A DNA stretch of 64,000 nucleotides. Origin: a sulfur-oxidizing endosymbiont of Gigantopelta aegis (GTDB lineage Bacteria; Pseudomonadota; Gammaproteobacteria; GRL18). Positions 1,595 through 54,341 of this stretch are shown here, piece by piece. The notes beneath the pieces were generated by a model. That model saw nothing but the letters and a program-made list of their open reading frames with translations, was not told the DNA's origin and did no database searches. The stretch covers positions 3,273,157 through 3,337,156 of the forward strand of contig NZ_JAEHGE010000001.1 in NCBI RefSeq assembly GCF_016097415.1. The letters run 5' to 3'. Every line of letters begins with the position of its first letter. Positions within the stretch are counted from its first letter, which is position 1. Position numbers and translations under genes: made by a program.

Positions 1595-1774
1595 AACCTA
1601 AAATAATCAGTTGAATCGTAGCGAGAGCGACTTAGGTGCTGAAGATTAAGGATTTTACAGGTTATTTTGGCTTTATTCGTAGTCACCCTACGGGTGAAGT
1701 CAAAATATTCTAGAAAATCCTTAAGATTAAGTGCATAAGGCGGTCGCAGTAGGTTCAACTGATTTTTTTAGGTT
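1595..1774. repeat. 180-bp palindromic MITE-like repeat, copy 1
   Basis: The ends are inverted: AACCTAAAATAATCAGTTGA at the left and TCAACTGATTTTTTTAGGTT at the right. The halves are imperfectly complementary throughout, around a central GTCACCCTACGGGTGA hairpin. A nearly identical 179-bp copy lies at 4693-4871, a right-half fragment at 45978-46050 and a solo end at 36253-36273. It encodes no credible protein, so any transposition would need a transposase in trans. No obvious target duplication flanks it. Confidence 0.85.
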
Positions 1775-4640: not shown

Positions 4641-4692
4641 AATAGTCGATCTTTTTTTCTTTTGGACTACACTTAAATTTTATTATAAGTTT

Positions 4693-4871
4693 AACCTAAA
4701 ATAATCAGTTGAATCGTAGCGAGAGCGACTTAGGTGCTGAAGATTAAGGGTTTTACAGGTTATTTTGGCTTTATTCGTAGTCACCTACGGGTGAAGTCAA
4801 AATGTTCTGGAAAATCCTTAAGATTCAGTGCATAAGGCGGTCGCAGTAGGTTCAACTGATTTTTTTAGGTT
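4693..4871. repeat. 180-bp palindromic MITE-like repeat, copy 2
   Basis: This 179-bp copy is almost identical to 1595-1774 and in the same orientation, with a few substitutions and one base fewer in the central hairpin (GTCACCTACGGGTGA). It lies between the hybrid kinase and the two-receiver gene, leaving 27 bp to the next start codon, so transcription between the two must cross it. Its long hairpin could attenuate or process a shared transcript. Confidence 0.85.
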
Positions 4872-4898
4872 TAACGCCACAGACAAAAAAAGATCACT

Positions 4899-14539: not shown

Positions 14540-14845
14540 TTGCAGACCTAAGACTGATGTGTCAACACTTTTCCGGACAGTTTTCTAAATATTTTTTTGG
14601 CTGTTTCAAGTGATTTTTGTCATTTTGTATTTCCTATCATTTTAGTTTCTCATGTTAACTTTAAATAGATGAAGAGAAAGGGCTTTGCCCTCTGGAACGA
14701 TAGAGCCGTTCCATTCACCCAAGGTATTTTCACAACGGTAATGATCCTGTTACAATATCTTCACGGCACAGGCTGAGGAGCCGATGGCCGTCAACGGTAA
14801 TGGGCGGCATTTATGTCGCCTTTTACCCCTCTTCAATCAATCGAT

Positions 14846-15451
14846 TTAAGCTATTTCCTGCTGTATTTCATAATCGACTGGTGACAAATAATCATTAGCC
14901 GAATGAAGTCGCTCCCGATTATAAAATACCTCAATATATTCAAATATTGCCTGCTTTGCTTCTACTCTGGTTTTGAATCGACAATGGTGCGTCAATTCAG
15001 TTTTCAAACTATGAAAGAAGCTCTCTGATACAGCATTGTCCCAGCAATTTCCTTTGCGGCTCATAGACTGAATTATGTTATGATCCGACAATATTTTTCT
15101 ATGACTATCAGAGGCATATTGGCTACCTCGGTCAGTATGCCAAAGCAATCCATCCATTGGTTTACGCTTCCATATGGCCATCAGTAAAGCATCATTGACT
15201 AGCTTGGCTTTCATTCGCTCATCCATCGACCAGCCAACAATTTGCCTAGAGAATAAGTCAATGACAACCGCTAAATATAACCAGCCTTCCTTGGTGGCAA
15301 TATAGGTAATATCACCCACATAGTAGCGATCAGGTTGAGAGACAGTAAACTCTCTTTCCAGTAAATTTGGAGATATACGCTTATTATGCTTGGAATTAGT
15401 CGTCGCTTTAAAGCGTCTCTTCGTTTTACAAAACAAACCGGCTTTTTTCAT
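14846..15451 (-). CDS. IS3-family transposase, catalytic (OrfB) main part, copy 1
   Basis: This rve-type integrase core carries the DDE residues. The first Asp is in [10 protein letters not shown], the second in [11 protein letters not shown], and the Glu in [18 protein letters not shown]. The visible frame starts at [11 protein letters not shown], but homology continues upstream in the frame of [18 protein letters not shown], so the true OrfB begins farther upstream and crosses a frameshift at 15550-15556. The same protein occurs in copy 2. Confidence 0.88.
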
Positions 15452-15474
15452 TAATCGACCAATTCTCCGGCGGC

Positions 15475-16005
15475 TTATATGAACGCCTTTTTCAGCCAGT
15501 TTTCTTTTAAGACGACGGGTTCCATAAGTCTTGCGACTGTCTTCAAACAGTTTTTTAGCTGCTCAGTAAGCGCTTCATTTTCTTTCTCTCTATCCGTTTT
15601 AGGAGAGCTAACCCAATCATAATAGCAACTACGGGAAACATCCATAAAACGGCACAGAATCGTTACCGGGTAATCTTTAGCCTGATCAGTTATCCATGCG
15701 TACTTCACAAAGTTTCCCTTGCAAAGTACGCTGTGGCCTTTTAATAAATCACGCTCCTGAATCACTTTTGCCAATTCTTTTTTCAGACGTTTTACTTCAT
15801 CATAAATGTGTTCATCACTTCTATTGGCTACCGTCTTCACCGGTTTGGAATATTTACTGAGCCAGGTATGTAGAGTATTTACATTAACACCTAGCTCCCT
15901 GGCAGTCTGAGAAACGGGTTGATCCGTCTCATTAGCTAATTTGACAGCTGATTCTTTAAATTCTGATGTATAGCTTTTATTCGGTTTTTTTGTTTGATCA
16001 TTCAT
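15475..16005 (-). CDS. IS3-family OrfA fused to the OrfB N terminus, copy 1
   Basis: Residues 1-90 are OrfA: a helix-turn-helix ([22 protein letters not shown]) and a coiled-coil ([20 protein letters not shown]). From about residue 100 the frame reads OrfB N-terminal sequence ([28 protein letters not shown]). The fusion arises because an A run after ERDLL has four bases here, against five in copy 2; six would restore the usual OrfA ending KKATAYFA. After TEQLKN the frame leaves OrfB at an A-AAA-AAC heptamer. Confidence 0.8.
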
Positions 16006-16068
16006 TTTAGGTCACACTTTTTATCTTTTAGTTATTTTAAGTTGTGTGTCCGGTTAAGTATAGCCACA

Positions 16069-36252: not shown

Positions 36253-36273
36253 AACCTAAAAAAATCAGTTGAA
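36253..36273. repeat. Solo end of the 180-bp palindromic repeat
   Basis: AACCTAAAAAAATCAGTTGA is the exact reverse complement of the right end of the copies at 1595 and 4693. The rest of the repeat is absent, so this is a deleted remnant. Confidence 0.7.
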
Positions 36274-36309: not shown

Positions 36310-36399
36310 GTAGAGTGGGCATGGTTTTATCTGCCCACGCTGACTCCTGAGCTTATATTCACACTTTCAGCGTGGGCACAAAAAGCGTGCCCACCCTAC
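36310..36399. repeat. 95-bp palindromic core repeat, solo copy
   Basis: The outer ends GTAGAGTGGGC and GCCCACCCTAC are inverted, with inner inverted TGCCCACGCTGA / TCAGCGTGGGCA. It matches the cores at 47337-47431 and 52063-52157 (in reverse orientation), but its middle has diverged and it lacks their outer arms. It lies 5 bp past the recD stop and could act as a hairpin for that transcript. Confidence 0.8.
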
Positions 36400-36404
36400 G
36401 ACTT

Positions 36405-41200: not shown

Positions 41201-41913
41201 TCTGCACGTATATCCTCTTTTGCATGACCCTCTATTAATTGTTGAAAAATAAATGTTTGACTGTCTTTTAACGCTTCTAATGCTTGTTTTTTTCTTGCTT
41301 GAAAGTCTTGCTTAAGCGCTTCGGGATCATTACCTTGCACAGCAGTGCTATTGGACAGTAAGTTATAAAAAACTTGACGAAAATCTTCAGGGGATGGCCA
41401 GTTATTGCTTAATAATTCATAGTCGTCTGTTTTCGCTAAAATACGATACCAGTCTCTCACCGCTTCTAATTCAATTTCAGCCGTGTCTGCTTCCATTTGT
41501 ATATTAAAATCCACCCCACTGCTAAAGGCATGTTGGGATAGTACCCGATTGCAAAAACTATGGATGGTAAAAATGGCCGCTTCATCTAAATTCAACAAGG
41601 CATTATTCAATGCTGGTGAAACATCAGCAATCGAAAATTTTGCCGTTAGTGCGCCATAAAAACTATCATGCTCAGGGAAATTGCCCCAGTTTTCTAATGC
41701 ATCCCGCAGTTCTTTGGCAATGCGTCCACGTAGCTCTTCAGTCGCAGCACGGGTAAAGGTCATGACGAGAATATTTTTTACATCTAATTGTCGCTCTAAT
41801 AACAAGCGTAAATAGATGCGAGTAATATTATAGGTTTTTCCCGTGCCAGCACTGGCTTCAATTAAATGACAGCCGGTTAAAGGTAGTATTTCTGGTTGTA
41901 GTAATTCACCCAT
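38272..41913 (-). CDS. recB: Exodeoxyribonuclease V beta subunit (RecB)
   Basis: RecB is the 3'-5' helicase and nuclease of RecBCD. Walker A is EASAGTGKTYNI, motif II LVDEFQDTDP, motif VI RLLYVAITRAEHRCYV, and the C-terminal nuclease has GFIDLIYHWQGKYYIVDYKS (D-x(n)-D-Y-K). The start ATG at 41913 (MGELLQPEIL) overlaps the recC stop by 8 bp. The intact frame over 1,213 codons contrasts with the broken accessory genes. Confidence 0.94.
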   Translation of the reverse strand: MGELLQPEILPLTGCHLIEASAGTGKTYNITRIYLRLLLERQLDVKNILVMTFTRAATEELRGRIAKELRDALENWGNFPEHDSFYGALTAKFSIADVSPALNNALLNLDEAAIFTIHSFCNRVLSQHAFSSGVDFNIQMEADTAEIELEAVRDWYRILAKTDDYELLSNNWPSPEDFRQVFYNLLSNSTAVQGNDPEALKQDFQARKKQALEALKDSQTFIFQQLIEGHAKEDIRAEEWQSLIDWLNSDYADDTSPLMPKSASNVFHGARYGKKPPEIKQQLLACFQAVKQLKDDAGKIETQIQKAKAYQIARQGIVIIREKIITEKQRSRLMNYDDLINQLSIALDTNALETNALEATESQPENVLAELIRTQYPVALVDEFQDTDPQQYHILKAVYHQQENAALYMIGDPKQAIYAFRGGDVFTYLAARNDADQQWQMNTNWRSSSAMVNAYNRLFYGAPLNASAKDIFKFGIQYSPVNSGGLADKKALSSDVFLDDASQAALQFIHFPFNEDYKLGNSKKDFVNQDFCEVIAHWCSKEIDQLLNSNTCIGEQTLQEQDIAILVRDKKEAAFMQDALRLSGYPSVYLSTHDNVFSSDEALELERVLSGILSLENDRLLIAALSTRLLGGDIATLIALQEDEQQWEAQRDRVFNLRIIWLKRGFMAMALEILHEGFKPHPQHHERSLTNAIQLLELLQQASQRHRQPEQLLNWLREQIDTQGANAEAELRLESDANLIRIITQHGCKGLEYPVVFIPFATRYKNPIKFGNKNIELFKYHDPNHNNRQSYFMGQNSVISEQYCQEEWAESIRLLYVAITRAEHRCYVCATVFKDYHLSALGQILQLSDESDLASSLQMLSRSEGKPDSHYVAVSGTDFTVVKQASTQNSMALSPASFTSRIERNWWLSSFSALTRNLRHGGISTPDRDQDEQIDQPLASKDKSDTIRFTLTKGAAAGNLLHDILEHTDFSQPLWQRSFERPIARFNEVLDEDKQHELMDWLDACLETPLGVDENSPRLSDLSWGHTLRETEFYFPMEQVKPLALGRLLANHRQQRQMTTAFTINPIQLPGNKALQGMMHGFIDLIYHWQGKYYIVDYKSTHLGNDLSAYQTDNLEKNIRDNYYDLQYLLYSLALHRYLKLRLSDYEPQQHFGGIHYLYLRGMTPDPKTHTGIFSADISAELLKELDNLFDGKDEPNNVIKNERTNNKGTENV

Positions 41914-44900
41914 GATCCGTTGTCTCCTGACGATTGGCATAGAGTGGTGCATACATTTCTTCTATGGCTGATTGCCAGTCCTGCTCCCAATTGGGCAGTT
42001 CCGCTTGATCACCCCAAAACCAATTAATGTAGGGGTCACTGCCCATTCCCTGAGTTTGAAATTGATCCTGCCAAAAAGCAGCAAAGGTAAAATTATTGAG
42101 CGGTGTATTGGTCGCCTTATTTTTGGCATTACGTTTAATGTAACAGTGCTTTCTACCCAGTTGTGCATCGAATAATAAAGCCTTGTTCATGCCTTGCTGC
42201 CAGCGTTTGATAAGAGTGCCTAACAATTCCTGAGCAGTGCTTGCATCAAGAGGGCTATAGCGCACAGTTAGGATGGCCATTTCATTATCTTTTAGCTCAC
42301 CGCGAAACAGGCCATGAGTTTCTGTTTCACCCAATTCAATTTGCGCAATCAGATGATGGATCCAGAGGCGGATATCATCCTTAGGCTTGGGATTAGCTAA
42401 GCGCCAATAGAACAAGTGTTCACCTAATAAAGGTAAATCTGCCTGGAGTTGAATGTTATTGATTGTTATTGTCACTGTTTTAACTTCTAGCTGACGCTTT
42501 GTGCTGGATTGAATTTTATCCTGCACATGACGAGAGAATTTAAGCCCCTGCTGTTGCCATTGTTCTAATTCCTGCTCTGTATTGGGTGTGTCGGGCAGTT
42601 GGCCGTCTAAACGATGACTCTGCATAACGCCTTCTATTGCATCTGCATTTAAAGACGTTGCCAAAGCAGTGCTGATGATTTCTTCTTGTATGGTATAACG
42701 CACTAAATTATTACTGACAAAGGGTTCACTGTCTTCTGGTATAACGGACGCTTGCTCATCAAAAAATAAGCCTAAGCGTTGCTGAGCAAATTGCTTGCAA
42801 GGATTGTCAAAAAATCGCACCAATTGTTCGGCATTTATTTGCGTGTCAGCAGTTGAATAGTCGTTCACTTCTATAAGATTATTTCTGAGTTCGCCCGGCT
42901 CACTGAGCTTTAACCATTGTTTGCTAAAACTCTGCCATTGACCTTGATAATTAGCAGTATTAAAGGCTTGTAAGGGGACGTTTAATTGACGTTCTGAGCT
43001 TTCCCAGCCATAGCCCTTGGTTAGATAATTGCTCAGTTCATTAAGTACCAAGGAGGGTTCTCGTTGATTATTGGTTTTTATATCATGTCCCTGATAACTC
43101 AAATACAATTTATCACGGCAGGAAATGATGGCTTCAAGGAATAAGTATCTATCATCACCACGTCTGGAACGATCACCTTTTCTCGGTGGTTCTACGGCCA
43201 TTAAATCAAAGCTCATTGCCTGTCGTTGTCGGGGAAATTCACCATCATTTAAACCGAGCACAGCAATAATTTTGAAGGGTACACTACGCATTGGCACCAT
43301 CGAACAAAATGTCACCTGTCCGGCCATAAATTGTCTTCCAGGCTCTGCCTGACTAAAGTGACTCGATAAAAAGTCACGAATTATGCTCAGGGGAATTCGC
43401 TGTTTATAATGGGCATGATTGGTATATTCACCTAGATCATCAATGGCCTGCGTAATGATCTGCTGGGCATTATTATCATCGCTTATATTGCTGAATAAAC
43501 TGTCTTTGATTTGCAATAAAAACTGTTGCCAGTCTTTTGCACTACGAGCCGTTTGCAATTCTCTAGCGCAATATTGCAGTTGTTCCAATAACTCAAAATA
43601 GCGACCTAATAATAGCGCTTCATCACCTTCTACATCAGGCAATAATAATTTATCCTGATAAATCAGCGCTTGATCAGCGTGCGCAAAACCGAGCAATAAG
43701 CGTTCAAGGCCGTACTTCCAAGTGAATTTATCATTAGAGTCTTTATTTTCAAGTACCTGTTGTTTATGACTTGCATCCAGTCCCCAATGAATAGCAGCAC
43801 TTTTGAGCCACCGCTCTAATAAGTTTAAGTCCGCTTCAGTGAGAGAAAATTTATCTTGTAGTGCTGGCAAGCGCAAATAAGCCAGCAGTTGACTCACTTG
43901 AAAACGACTATCGGGCAAATCCAATAAGTCAGAAAAGGCTTGTACCAGAGGCTCTGAATCCTTGAGTGTTCTGTCGGCAATAGAACAAGGTAAGGGTGGC
44001 ACTTGTTCACTCCAATCGTTCCAAGCATGCGCAAAAACAGCATCAACATAGGGCGCATAATTTTCAACATTGGGACACATGACAAGAATATCTTTTGGGG
44101 TCAACTCTTTATCGTTATTAATCTGATGCAATAACCAGTCATGCAATGCCTGAATTTCTCGCAAGGCACTATGCGCTGAGGCAATACAAATACTGTCATC
44201 GTTTTTAAACGACAATGCAGTTGATGCCGACATTTCGGTATTTCGAGCATCATTGAGATTTAAAATATCGGTCTGAATACTTTGCAACAAAGTCAGTTGC
44301 TCGCCAGTTTCCAGAGCAAGGTCTTCAGGTGATTCATAAATTGGAATTTCTAAACTGGTATGATCTTGTAATAGATACAAAAAATCTTTACCCTGAGAAC
44401 CCAGATTGGCCAATATGGGATTGGTACTTATCGTGTCTTGCTCGTCTAAAGCCGGTGAACGCTCATGAGACAATTGTGCATAGTCACTGCTTTTGAGCCA
44501 ACGGTAAAAATGTTCTTTTGCCTGCGCCTTATCTGTTTTTAAATCGCCCCAGTATTCGACACAAGGGTTAAGATGGAAAAAATGCACTTGAGTGTGCTCA
44601 CCCAGTTCACTTAGAAATTCCAGCCAAATTTGTGGTAGGGTATTGATGCCAAAGAGGCTGATACGTTCCGGTAAATGACAGGCTTGACTCTTATTTTTAA
44701 GGCTTGTGATTGCTTGCCTTAGCAACTGCACCGGATGCTGTGGATCTTGAGCGATTAATAATTGCCATAGAAATGCTTGCCAGCCGCCCTGCCCCAAATC
44801 ACCTTTTTGCCAGGCCATTAACCAGTCCGGGCGAAAAATTTGATATTGCTCAAAGAGATCGGCCAATTGACAAGCCAATTGGTAACGCTTGTCTTGACTA

Positions 44901-45310
44901 GCCTCCGACTGACCGCCATGAGTATTTTTATTAGGCGCATTATTTTTAGCCATCCAGTATTGGCTTGCTTCCTGACAGAGAGGATTATTCACCATCGCTT
45001 CACTGGCTAATAAATCGTGAATACGCCAGCTTAATACCTCACGGGTATAGCTTGATTGCTCAGGCACTTGATCTTTACCTAAAATAGCTCTGATTTGATT
45101 CCAGAAAAAGGCCATGGGCAGACTAAAACTCAGGTTCATACTGATGCCCCGGGTTTCAGCCAGTTTCAGGTTCAGCCAGTGCTGCATACCCTGGCTTTGT
45201 ACCAGTATAATTTCTTCACTGAGAATGTTGTGATTGGAGCCAGTTTGCATGACTCTATCAAGCAGAAAGACCAGATTTTCAAGGCGGTTGGCAGGATAGA
45301 TATTAATCAA
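41906..45310 (-). CDS. recC: Exodeoxyribonuclease V gamma subunit (RecC)
   Basis: RecC recognises Chi and holds the complex together. The 1,134-residue length, the N-terminal YPANRLENLVFLLDRV, QSQGMQHWLNLKLAE, and RSVPFKIIAVLGLNDGEFPR are RecC signatures. It is first in a recC-recB-recD operon with overlapping junctions. The reading frame is intact. Chi specificity cannot be read from sequence here. Confidence 0.93.
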   Translation of the reverse strand: MINIYPANRLENLVFLLDRVMQTGSNHNILSEEIILVQSQGMQHWLNLKLAETRGISMNLSFSLPMAFFWNQIRAILGKDQVPEQSSYTREVLSWRIHDLLASEAMVNNPLCQEASQYWMAKNNAPNKNTHGGQSEASQDKRYQLACQLADLFEQYQIFRPDWLMAWQKGDLGQGGWQAFLWQLLIAQDPQHPVQLLRQAITSLKNKSQACHLPERISLFGINTLPQIWLEFLSELGEHTQVHFFHLNPCVEYWGDLKTDKAQAKEHFYRWLKSSDYAQLSHERSPALDEQDTISTNPILANLGSQGKDFLYLLQDHTSLEIPIYESPEDLALETGEQLTLLQSIQTDILNLNDARNTEMSASTALSFKNDDSICIASAHSALREIQALHDWLLHQINNDKELTPKDILVMCPNVENYAPYVDAVFAHAWNDWSEQVPPLPCSIADRTLKDSEPLVQAFSDLLDLPDSRFQVSQLLAYLRLPALQDKFSLTEADLNLLERWLKSAAIHWGLDASHKQQVLENKDSNDKFTWKYGLERLLLGFAHADQALIYQDKLLLPDVEGDEALLLGRYFELLEQLQYCARELQTARSAKDWQQFLLQIKDSLFSNISDDNNAQQIITQAIDDLGEYTNHAHYKQRIPLSIIRDFLSSHFSQAEPGRQFMAGQVTFCSMVPMRSVPFKIIAVLGLNDGEFPRQRQAMSFDLMAVEPPRKGDRSRRGDDRYLFLEAIISCRDKLYLSYQGHDIKTNNQREPSLVLNELSNYLTKGYGWESSERQLNVPLQAFNTANYQGQWQSFSKQWLKLSEPGELRNNLIEVNDYSTADTQINAEQLVRFFDNPCKQFAQQRLGLFFDEQASVIPEDSEPFVSNNLVRYTIQEEIISTALATSLNADAIEGVMQSHRLDGQLPDTPNTEQELEQWQQQGLKFSRHVQDKIQSSTKRQLEVKTVTITINNIQLQADLPLLGEHLFYWRLANPKPKDDIRLWIHHLIAQIELGETETHGLFRGELKDNEMAILTVRYSPLDASTAQELLGTLIKRWQQGMNKALLFDAQLGRKHCYIKRNAKNKATNTPLNNFTFAAFWQDQFQTQGMGSDPYINWFWGDQAELPNWEQDWQSAIEEMYAPLYANRQETTDHG

Positions 45311-45449: not shown

Positions 45450-46260
45450 ATGCTCCAACCCGTTTCCATTCGCATTAATATTCTCAGTAATTTTTTGATT
45501 GTTATTGTGCTTATCTCGACAGCACTTTTAGCCTTGCAATACTATTTCAGTCAGCAATTAGCCCTTTCTGCAGCACATAATTATTTTATTCAAACTACCA
45601 AAGTGATTGCCCAACATATCCAATCCCGTGACAGACTCACAAAAAACATGCTCAATTACACCGAGTTGTATCCAAATTTGACCCTAGCGCCAGGTAAAGC
45701 AGAATAAACAGGCGATTAGAACCGATCCCTATCTTTTTTCTAATCTAAAACAACAAGGCATTACTTTTGCTAAAGTCATTCATCAATCAACTGCCGTTTT
45801 AGGCATTGATTTTACTCTAAGCCGACTGAATGAATTCTTACAACATGAAAAAATTGATCCCATTAGATGTACCGGAGTTTCTTTATGATTATGGTGAAAT
45901 CTATAATTTCTGTGTCGAGAAAGGCGCATTAACAGAAGAGGAACGATTCAAAATCAGTGAGCATGTCATTATGAGCATCAAAATGCTGGAAAATCCTTAA
46001 GATTCGGTGCATAAGGCGGTCGCAGTAGGTTCAACTGATTTTTTTAGGTTGAAGCACTAACCGCCAGTGATCGTCCCTATAAAAAGGGCAAAACAATTTC
46101 TGAAGCGATTCAAATTATGAGTTTCATGAAGCAGGATCAGCATATTGACGGGGAGATATTTGAATTGTTTTTACGTTCGAAAACTTATTTACACTATGCA
46201 AAAAAACACCTCAAGGCTGAGCAAATCGATGAGGTCGATATTGAGTCATATATTCTTTAA
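45450..46260 (+). pseudogene. HD-GYP cyclic-di-GMP phosphodiesterase, eroded by deletions
   Basis: The N terminus has a membrane helix (ILSNFLIVIVLISTALLAL) and a periplasmic sensor fragment. A second sensor piece (TDPYLFSNLKQQGITFAKVI) follows, then a middle HD-GYP piece (IPLDVPEFLYDYGEIYNFCV to SEHVIMSIKMLENP), then the C-terminal piece (ALTASDRPYKKGKTISEAIQ to AEQIDEVDIESYIL). The catalytic HD-GYP segment between the last two is gone, replaced by part of the palindromic repeat. Its stop overlaps the convergent gene by 4 bp. Confidence 0.85.
45978..46050. repeat. Right-half fragment of the 180-bp palindromic repeat inside the HD-GYP remnant
   Basis: The sequence from CTGGAAAATCCTTAAGATTC to GATTTTTTTAGGTT equals the right end of the copies at 1595 and 4693. 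Its left boundary is at TCAAAATGCTGGAAAA, which is similar to both the gene and the repeat, so the junction may be a short-homology recombination. Downstream the gene resumes at GAAGCACTAACCGCC. Confidence 0.85.
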
Positions 46261-46844
46261 AGCGGCATCTCTGGCTTTTTTTCTTTTAGGGCATGCCAGA
46301 TACTTTTCACATCAACATGCCGGCCTTTATGGCAAATGAGGGTAATTAGAATCTGTTCTAGTGCGGCATAAAGAGAAAATATAATGGCAACTTTTAATGG
46401 CCAATCAAGCAGACCGGTAAATAGCAATACATAGGCTATCACACTAATTGCCACCGCAACTTTAACACTTAGGGTATGGTAGCTAGTCCAGGTCTTAAAT
46501 TTTATAAGGCCTATAATAACAGGCAAAGTGAAGCAAGCAATCATGATGATGACATAAACCAATTCACGCATCACAATATCAGGCCAAAGTAGCCAAGCAC
46601 TAATTGCCATCGTAATATAAACAAAAAAATCACCCCAACTATCTAACTGAGCACCCAGTTCAGAGACCAGATTCATTCGCCGAGCCAGATAACCATCTAA
46701 CACATCCGTTAATTCAGTGAAGATCAATAACAAAATAAAACTGATAGGCAGTCCATTAATTGCCAGATACAACAGGATTGGAGCCATTAATATGCGAATG
46801 GAGCTAACGATATTGGGTAAATGTCGAGAGATTGAATTTAACAT
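46257..46844 (-). CDS. CDP-alcohol phosphatidyltransferase family protein
   Basis: This integral membrane enzyme has the signature DG-x2-AR-x8-G-x3-D-x3-D, seen as DGYLARR, then ELGAQLDSWGD (about residues 50-72). Five or six hydrophobic helices fill the 195 residues. It would transfer a phosphatidyl group from CDP-diacylglycerol to an alcohol. The acceptor is not predictable; PgsA/PgsB-like enzymes are possible. It is convergent with the HD-GYP remnant. Confidence 0.82.
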   Translation of the reverse strand: MLNSISRHLPNIVSSIRILMAPILLYLAINGLPISFILLLIFTELTDVLDGYLARRMNLVSELGAQLDSWGDFFVYITMAISAWLLWPDIVMRELVYVIIMIACFTLPVIIGLIKFKTWTSYHTLSVKVAVAISVIAYVLLFTGLLDWPLKVAIIFSLYAALEQILITLICHKGRHVDVKSIWHALKEKKPEMPL

Positions 46845-47294: not shown

Positions 47295-47469
47295 TAGCGC
47301 CCATCCGTTTATTCTAGAATTATTTGATAATTTTGACCGTAGGGTGGGCACGCTTTTTGTGCCCACGCTGAAAGTGTACATAATAAGCGCTTGAGTCAGC
47401 GTGGGCAGATAAAGCTATGCCCACCCTACGGTTCTTTATATAAAAAAACCTATTGACGGATGGACACTA
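47295..47469. repeat. 175-bp nested palindromic element A, with 95-bp core
   Basis: The ends TAGCGCCCATCCGT and ACGGATGGACACTA are inverted. The core 47337-47431 (CCGTAGGGTGGGC...CCCACCCTACGG) has nested inverted repeats. The arms are ATTCTAGAATTATTTGATAA (left) and TTCTTTATATAAAAAAACCT (right). In element B (52026-52199) the arms are swapped and inverted, but the core has the same orientation. It fills the gap between the small acidic gene and phhB. Confidence 0.9.
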
Positions 47470-48443: not shown

Positions 48444-48660
48444 TTGCTGATTCCATTGATAGTATTAGTTCACTATAAGCCAAAAATTCATTATCTGCTT
48501 GACTATATTCGCCAATTATTTATCTTTTCAGGACAAGTTTGGTTGTCGCCCAATAATATTAGATGTACTTTTATAAAAATCACACTAATCTGTCAATATC
48601 TCTCGGAAAAATCTTATAAATTACTTGATTACCCACAAAGCTCCGCCATATTTCGATAAC

Positions 48661-48720
48661 TATACTATAATTATACTATAATTATACTATAATTATACTA
48701 TAATTATACTATAATTAAAG
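48661..48720. repeat. 11-bp AT-rich tandem repeat inside the IS1595 element
   Basis: About four units of ATAATTATACT plus partial units at both ends. Each unit holds the palindrome ATAATTAT. It lies between the left inverted repeat and the transposase start and could contain the transposase promoter (TATAAT occurs in every unit). Confidence 0.9.
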
Positions 48721-48742
48721 TATAGATTATGTGTGGAGTAGA

Positions 48743-52025: not shown

Positions 52026-52199
52026 TAGTGTCCATCCGTAAATAGGTTTTTTATATAAAGAACCGTAGGGTGGGCACTCTTTTTGTGCCCACGCTGAAAG
52101 TGTACATAATAAGCGCTTGAGTCAGCGTGGGCAGATAAAGCCATGCCCACCCTACGGTCAAAATTATCAAATAATTTTAGAATAAACGGATGGACACTA
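52026..52199. repeat. 174-bp nested palindromic element B, with 95-bp core
   Basis: The ends TAGTGTCCATCCGT and ACGGATGGACACTA are inverted. The left arm here (AAATAGGTTTTTTATATAAA) corresponds to the right arm of element A, and its right arm to A's left arm. The core (52063-52157), however, reads in the same direction as in A. It abuts the stop codon of the Fic gene. Confidence 0.9.

Positions 52200-52827: not shown

Positions 52828-54341
<1,514 letters not shown>

Follow-up and report, generated by a model that had tools for sequence, protein, structure and literature searches.

Remnant of a 175-bp MITE and a probable short-homology deletion in a decayed HD-GYP gene of a Gigantopelta aegis endosymbiont

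The HD-GYP gene considered here lies at 45450-46260 of the window, that is, of the whole stretch of 64,000 nucleotides that was analysed (G000:C1:3273157-3337156) from the 4.9-Mb genome (11 contigs) of a sulfur-oxidizing endosymbiont of Gigantopelta aegis. It is a pseudogene. On one side it is flanked by recC (41906-45310, minus strand; TIGR01450, 844 bits) and on the other by a gene resembling CDP-alcohol phosphatidyltransferases (46257-46844, minus strand), whose family matches are below their cut-offs. HD-GYP proteins are c-di-GMP phosphodiesterases. Compared with the orthologue of the relative G013, the gene retains 256 of 798 residues, distributed over four pieces on the plus strand. The first (45450-45689, residues 4-83, 66% identity) is the start of the sensor, and its open reading frame stops at 45707. 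The second (45691-45861, residues 191-247), placed by comparison with the orthologue, is another part of the sensor in another frame. The third (45863-45990, residues 632-681) reads LDVPEFLYDYGE...EHVIMSIKMLE and is matched by Pfam HD_5 (E 4.8e-07), while the fourth (46051-46260, residues 729-797, 71% identity) runs from EALTASDRPYKKGK to the stop codon, its HD_5 match (E 0.00058) being below the cut-off. An earlier description made from the DNA letters (the sequence-only reading) gave the gene as SEHVIMSIKMLENP* up to a palindromic repeat and EALTASDRPYKKGK after it, and both are present in the sequence.

Since the gene survives as four pieces, three deletions are implied. In deletion 1 (junction at 45693-45706, plus strand, aligned to the relatives' loci L041, L042, L043, L044 and L048), 314-320 nt are gone relative to five relatives. 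In deletion 2 (junction at 45862-45866, plus strand, aligned to eight relatives), 1169-1199 nt are gone, including the HD motif (HDCGKV in G013). No element sequence was seen at either of these two junctions in the alignment to the relatives' loci. Deletion 3, which is the one associated with the repeat, removed 146 nt of gene relative to each of the eight relatives, including the HHExx..GYP segment, and the gene now has a stop at ENP* and is frameshifted. The proposal that the repeat has replaced the catalytic core is therefore correct for the HHExx/GYP segment but not for the HD motif, which belongs to deletion 2; the loss of gene sequence proposed with it, at about 130 bp, is real but larger. 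Because both motif regions are deleted, HD and HHExx..GYP are not found together in one open frame of this gene. The HD-GYP part of the orthologue has eight further matches in the genome, at only 28-38% identity, so no second copy of the gene was found.

The whole locus was used as query against 40 genomes, the endosymbiont's own included. Among the matches listed, eight genomes of the genus (G004, G008, G009, G010, G012, G013, G014 and G015) have gene segments, and the 3' end was matched in G021 and G022, with a short match in G029; weak 3'-end matches were observed in G007. Seven of the eight orthologues have open frames of 798-826 codons between stops; that of G014 has 731 codons, and as it starts behind a stop close to the end of the contig, its beginning is not shown whole. 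In the G013 protein, Pfam HD was matched at 435-512 and HD_5 at 619-765, with dCache_1 below its cut-off. Of the relatives' eight loci, five have an orthologue of one or both neighbours next to the gene: recC-like sequence in L042 and L047, and the transferase in L041, L046, L047 and L048. Neither neighbour was found at L043, L044 and L045. The eight orthologues are similar to HD-GYP proteins with a Cache-like sensor in that they carry HDCGK and HHExM..TGYP-type motifs; the gene of the endosymbiont differs in being down to 256 of 798 residues in four pieces.

At the 94 surviving codons, differences between this gene and the eight orthologues at codon positions 1+2 against position 3 were 254:380 (0.67), compared with 452:1212 (0.37) among the eight themselves, both sums pooling related pairs and hence not being independent. 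Protein identity to the eight was 0.69-0.76, and among the eight it averaged 0.85 (0.79-0.91); the closest relatives are only about 75% identical at this locus. These figures fit relaxed constraint on the endosymbiont's own branch, although a working gene that evolved faster before it died would leave much the same pattern. The gene is dead, and the repeat is one contributor to this.

The DNA between the third and fourth pieces corresponds to the right part of two repeats in the window, at 1592-1777 and 4690-4874. When up to 3 mismatches are allowed, a 21-mer from the core of the repeat is matched three times in the window, including once at the HD-GYP locus, and not at all in 100 shuffles. 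The copy at 4695-4869 (plus strand, 175 bp), which served as reference, is flanked by TTTAA duplications at 4690-4694 and 4870-4874, and a second full-length copy at 1597-1772 (plus strand) by TTCAA duplications. Comparison with full copies showed that the right 63 nt of this 175-bp element are present in the gene at 45986-46048 (plus strand), terminating in the exact end ...GATTTTTTTAGG. The repeat had been placed at 45976-46055; a fragment is indeed found there, and it is better described as 45986-46048 plus the target copy at 46049-46053. That it represents the right part of the repeat was correctly recognized.

The two junctions are of different kinds. At the right junction, ...GATTTTTTTAGG is followed by TTGAA and then by GCACTAACC. 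The TTGAA target site (46049-46053, plus strand) adjoins the intact element end and forms the Phe-Glu codons of a DIFEALT motif; the equivalent codons read TTGAA in six of the eight relatives, TCGAA in G009 and TTGAG in G012. None of the eight carries an insert at this place. The left breakpoint, in contrast, is internal to the element and lies inside sequence common to gene and element, namely TCAAAATG followed by CTGGAA (45978-45991, plus strand), which is the breakpoint of deletion 3. By alignment, the gene reads ...AGCATCAAAATG-CTGGAA and the element ...AAGTCAAAATGTTCTGGAAAATCCTTAAG, with two extra bases in the element between TCAAAATG and CTGGAA. As CTGGAA may be gene or element, the left junction is not assignable base by base. 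A match as good as TCAAAATG was found for 165 of 20,000 random 20-mers of the window and for 199 of 20,000 from the relatives' loci, so that this match is expected by chance in about 1% of cases. The similarity that the sequence-only reading had noticed at the left junction is thus real. Alignment with the homologues, the check that it had proposed, defined both junctions, and the two anchors on the gene side are 146 nt apart in every one of the eight relatives.

Assembly can be misled by repeats, and the repeat and its deletion might accordingly be an artefact of assembly or binning. We regard this as extremely unlikely: the contig that carries the locus is 4.2 Mb long, the genome has a completeness rating of 99.91%, the sequence on either side is specific to this gene, and the repeat is absent from the gene's two other deletion junctions. 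A local repeat search within 45800-46250 found nothing, because just one of the element's halves is present, and a search of the locus against Rfam gave no match at gathering level. Three microRNA-family matches to a full copy of the element (best E 0.12) were far below their cut-offs and were taken as chance.

The repeat has the properties of a MITE: it is short and multicopy, with terminal inverted repeats and target-site duplications. Full copies start with CCTAAAA and end with TTTTAGG (ends CCTAAAATAATCAGTT and CCTAAAAAAATCAGTT), and the 5-bp duplication is mostly TTNAA. The 19-nt terminus occurs 169 times in the genome at up to 2 mismatches (reversed-pattern control, 0), which would amount to about 85 pairs, but some of them are lone ends, so that this number of copies is approximate. 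Examination of 75 genome stretches gave 56 full copies, 18 partial ones (of which L068 and L069 cover only part of copies that enter the full count as L145 and L147, and L155 is the same as L078) and one, L135, without a match. The 5-bp flanks are identical in 46 of the 56 full copies, match in five more after a shift of the alignment end (L075, L079, L119, L127 and L129), and do not match in the remaining five (L051, L062, L066, L142 and L153). Among the 46 exact duplications were TTTAA (14), TTAAA (11), ATTAT (7), TTCAA (6), TTTAT (2) and ATAAT (2), with TTAAT, TTGAA, GTTAT and ATAAA once each; T at position 2 and A at position 4 are invariant (46 of 46), and 32 of 46 are TTNAA.

Several incomplete copies were also observed. 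L136 (G000:C1:3640400-3641050) is a 104-bp MITE with an internal deletion of about core positions 46-115. The copies L122, L123, L125 and L078 have a break near CAAAATNT. On the foreign side, L122 and L123 have GGCTCTTCTCCGCTTTGATGAG on one strand, and in L122 transposase-like coding sequence comes before it; we take this to resemble an ISL3-type element inserting into the MITE. A lone terminus, TTTAACCTAAAAAAATCAGTTGAA, is present at 36255-36273 of the window, directly before an unrelated palindromic repeat. A palindromic repeat distinct from the MITE, about 95 nt long (GTAGGGTGGGCAC...TGCCCACCCTAC), has three copies in the window (36310-36400, 47336-47432 and 52062-52158). The window further contains two near-identical copies of another element (14555-16038 and 52828-54308), the first with two frames that presumably represent an IS3-type transposase pair, and arrays of 11-nt direct repeats at 2211-2309 and 48647-48730.

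An exact terminus followed by a TTGAA target at the right end makes arrival by transposition most likely, with the homology event afterwards. We therefore consider it highly probable that a full MITE inserted at TTGAA and that a short-homology deletion then took 146 nt of gene together with 112 nt of element. In the first step, the 175-bp MITE would have entered TTGAA in the DIFEALT codons and duplicated the 5-bp site, possibly with an IS1380-like transposase acting in trans. In the second, a deletion between TCAAAATG-CTGGAA of the gene and the similar TCAAAATGTTCTGGAA inside the element would have removed the HHExx..GYP segment (the 146 nt) and, with it, 112 nt from the left of the element and the target copy on that side, perhaps by replication slippage or end joining. 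The proposed intermediate, gene plus full element, was not found in any one genome, and this order of steps is the one suggested by the junctions.

The sequence-only reading had instead favoured a short-homology exchange. In a one-step form of it, the gene would have recombined with a MITE copy elsewhere through TCAAAATG/CTGGAA on the left and TTGAA on the right, with no transposition at this place. Short shared sequence does occur at both junctions. However, such an exchange needs two homology events and a donor flanked by TTGAA, which is the case for one of the 46 copies with exact duplications, plus L079 after the end shift, whereas an exact terminus next to a TTNAA-type site is predicted by transposition without further assumptions. 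The single exchange is thus very improbable.

Two 53-bp half-elements, CCTTAAGATTC...TTTTTTTAGG, were found in the genome at L131 (G000:C1:2687650-2688200) and L134 (G000:C1:3255150-3255700), with their own 5-bp duplications (ATAAT and ATTAT, respectively). In an exact search of the genome, these are the only two places where WTNAW precedes CCTTAAGATTC. The right half of the MITE apparently can move alone, judging from these copies, with the internal CCTTAAG serving as its left end, and the first step could have involved such a form. A half-element (CCTTAAGATTC...TTTTAGG) might accordingly have inserted at TTGAA, a deletion that began exactly at its left end, perhaps made by the transposase, then taking the 146 nt of gene. 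Yet the five bases before CCTTAAG at the locus are AAAAT, as within the full element, and not TTGAA; the additional TCAAAATG match would be a coincidence; and CTGGAAAAT would have to be all gene, giving Asn after MLE. We rank this alternative lower, as improbable, because it needs GAAAAT where the eight relatives encode Q, M or L. A deletion hot spot near element position 113 was also considered, as L131, L134 and L136 all break nearby. L131 and L134 are half-elements with duplications of their own and L136 is an internal deletion, so there is no case for it. It may further be speculated, with a small chance of being right, that the internal CC(T/A)TAA of the family provides spare ends, that half-units of 53 bp move alone, and that short homologies within the element render inserted copies liable to delete neighbouring DNA. 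If true, insertion followed by a built-in deletion would constitute a two-stage gene remover in these genomes.

Insertion of the full MITE followed by deletion, the reading preferred here, remains only one part of the decay of this gene. The statement that the repeats are actively reshaping a cyclic-di-GMP gene goes too far: the element takes part in a single one of the three deletions that this dead gene has suffered, these deletions and the insertion could have come in any order, and the HD-GYP part is matched at eight further places of the genome. As the two other deletions broke the gene with no element involved, the picture looks like ordinary decay helped by a little-studied mobile repeat, and the event fits the established decay of genes by mobile elements.

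Besides the endosymbiont's own genome, 20 of 39 others that were searched have the MITE, and every one of them belongs to its family. Within the genus it is present in 13 of 15, in other genera of the family in 7 of 8, and in families elsewhere in the class in none of 16; G005, G008, G013, G014 and G018 gave weak or partial matches. The 22 loci L019-L040 comprised 16 full copies of relatives, one own copy and five partial copies, with identical 5-bp flanks in 13 of the 16. The two ends covary in the relatives, CCTAGAAAAATCA occurring with TTTTTCTAGG and CCTAAATTAATCA with TTAATTTAGG. An exact-pattern scan of named genomes, which may omit records very near the genome of the window, gave 50 stretches, all titled Gammaproteobacteria or gamma proteobacterium, among them symbionts of two clams, Taylorina sp. 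and Lucinoma myriamae.

The likely, putative source of the MITE is an IS1380-like element, which has ends of a similar kind and, like the MITE, 5-bp duplications. A search of the own genome for the IS1380 family gave matches that are broken and below the cut-off. Two own IS1380-like copies, L083 (TTAAA) and L084 (ATAAA), are 99.4% identical, with ends CCTAAAAACCGCAGTA and CCTATAAAAATCAGTT (also quoted as CCTAAAAACC.../CCTATAAAAATCAGTT). Similar copies occur in G004 (TTAAT flanks, ends CCTAAATTAATCACTT and CCTATTTTAATCAGTT) and G018 (TTTAA flanks, ends CCTAGAAACGGCAGTT and CCTAAAAACGGCAGTT). In 4 of 11 IS loci scanned (L083, L084, L090 and L091), end pairs at IS length have exact 5-bp flanks; in the other seven no IS ends with exact 5-bp duplications were found. 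An extra end pair in L084 (CCAAC) matches poorly and was taken as chance. L089 has similar ends and flanks that differ by one base (ATCAA and ATAAA), and its 522-aa frame scored 69 against a cut-off of 34.7 for Pfam PF13701 (DDE_Tnp_1_4) and 122.7 bits against 180 for the NCBIfam IS1380 model NF033539. The latter being below the curated cut-off, the transposase is called IS1380-like and is at best a divergent relative. IS1247 of the IS1380 family is given in PMC3281130 as 1672 bp, with IR 16/13 and a DR of 5 bp, and members of that family resemble the elements here in their 5-bp duplications, length of about 1.68 kb and DDE_Tnp_1_4 transposase.

The similarity between MITE and IS1380-like element is confined to about the terminal 12-24 bases, and the own IS copies are broken. 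No IS1380-family match at E 0.001 was found in 11 of the 20 MITE-bearing relatives, all draft genomes (G001, G003, G006, G008, G010, G013, G014, G015, G019, G022 and G023), and no MITE match in G004, which holds the best-matching IS. The only matches over the cut-off are in G024 and G034, both of other families.

The 175-bp family was not found described in the literature searched, which included the accessible parts of PMC3281130, PMC10813416, PMC3542288, PMC4133298, PMC10969869 and PMC9769881. It resembles other prokaryote MITEs, as described in PMC10969869, in being short, multicopy and non-coding, with terminal inverted repeats and target duplications, and in inserting into genes; size variants, including copies missing one end, are known for QMITE2 (PMC10969869), and an IS982-derived MITE of Cardinium (PMC9769881) is another published MITE for comparison. 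It differs in its 5-bp TTNAA-type target and likely IS1380-like parent (the accessible text of PMC10969869 has 0 mentions of IS1380), and in that the copy at the HD-GYP locus is truncated together with the gene. Taken together, the locus appears to give a base-level record of a small transposon helping to erase a gene, by entry at a TTGAA codon pair and then short-homology loss of coding sequence, and the analysis defines a MITE family, abundant and possibly derived from an IS1380-like element, in a bacterial family that includes clam symbionts.
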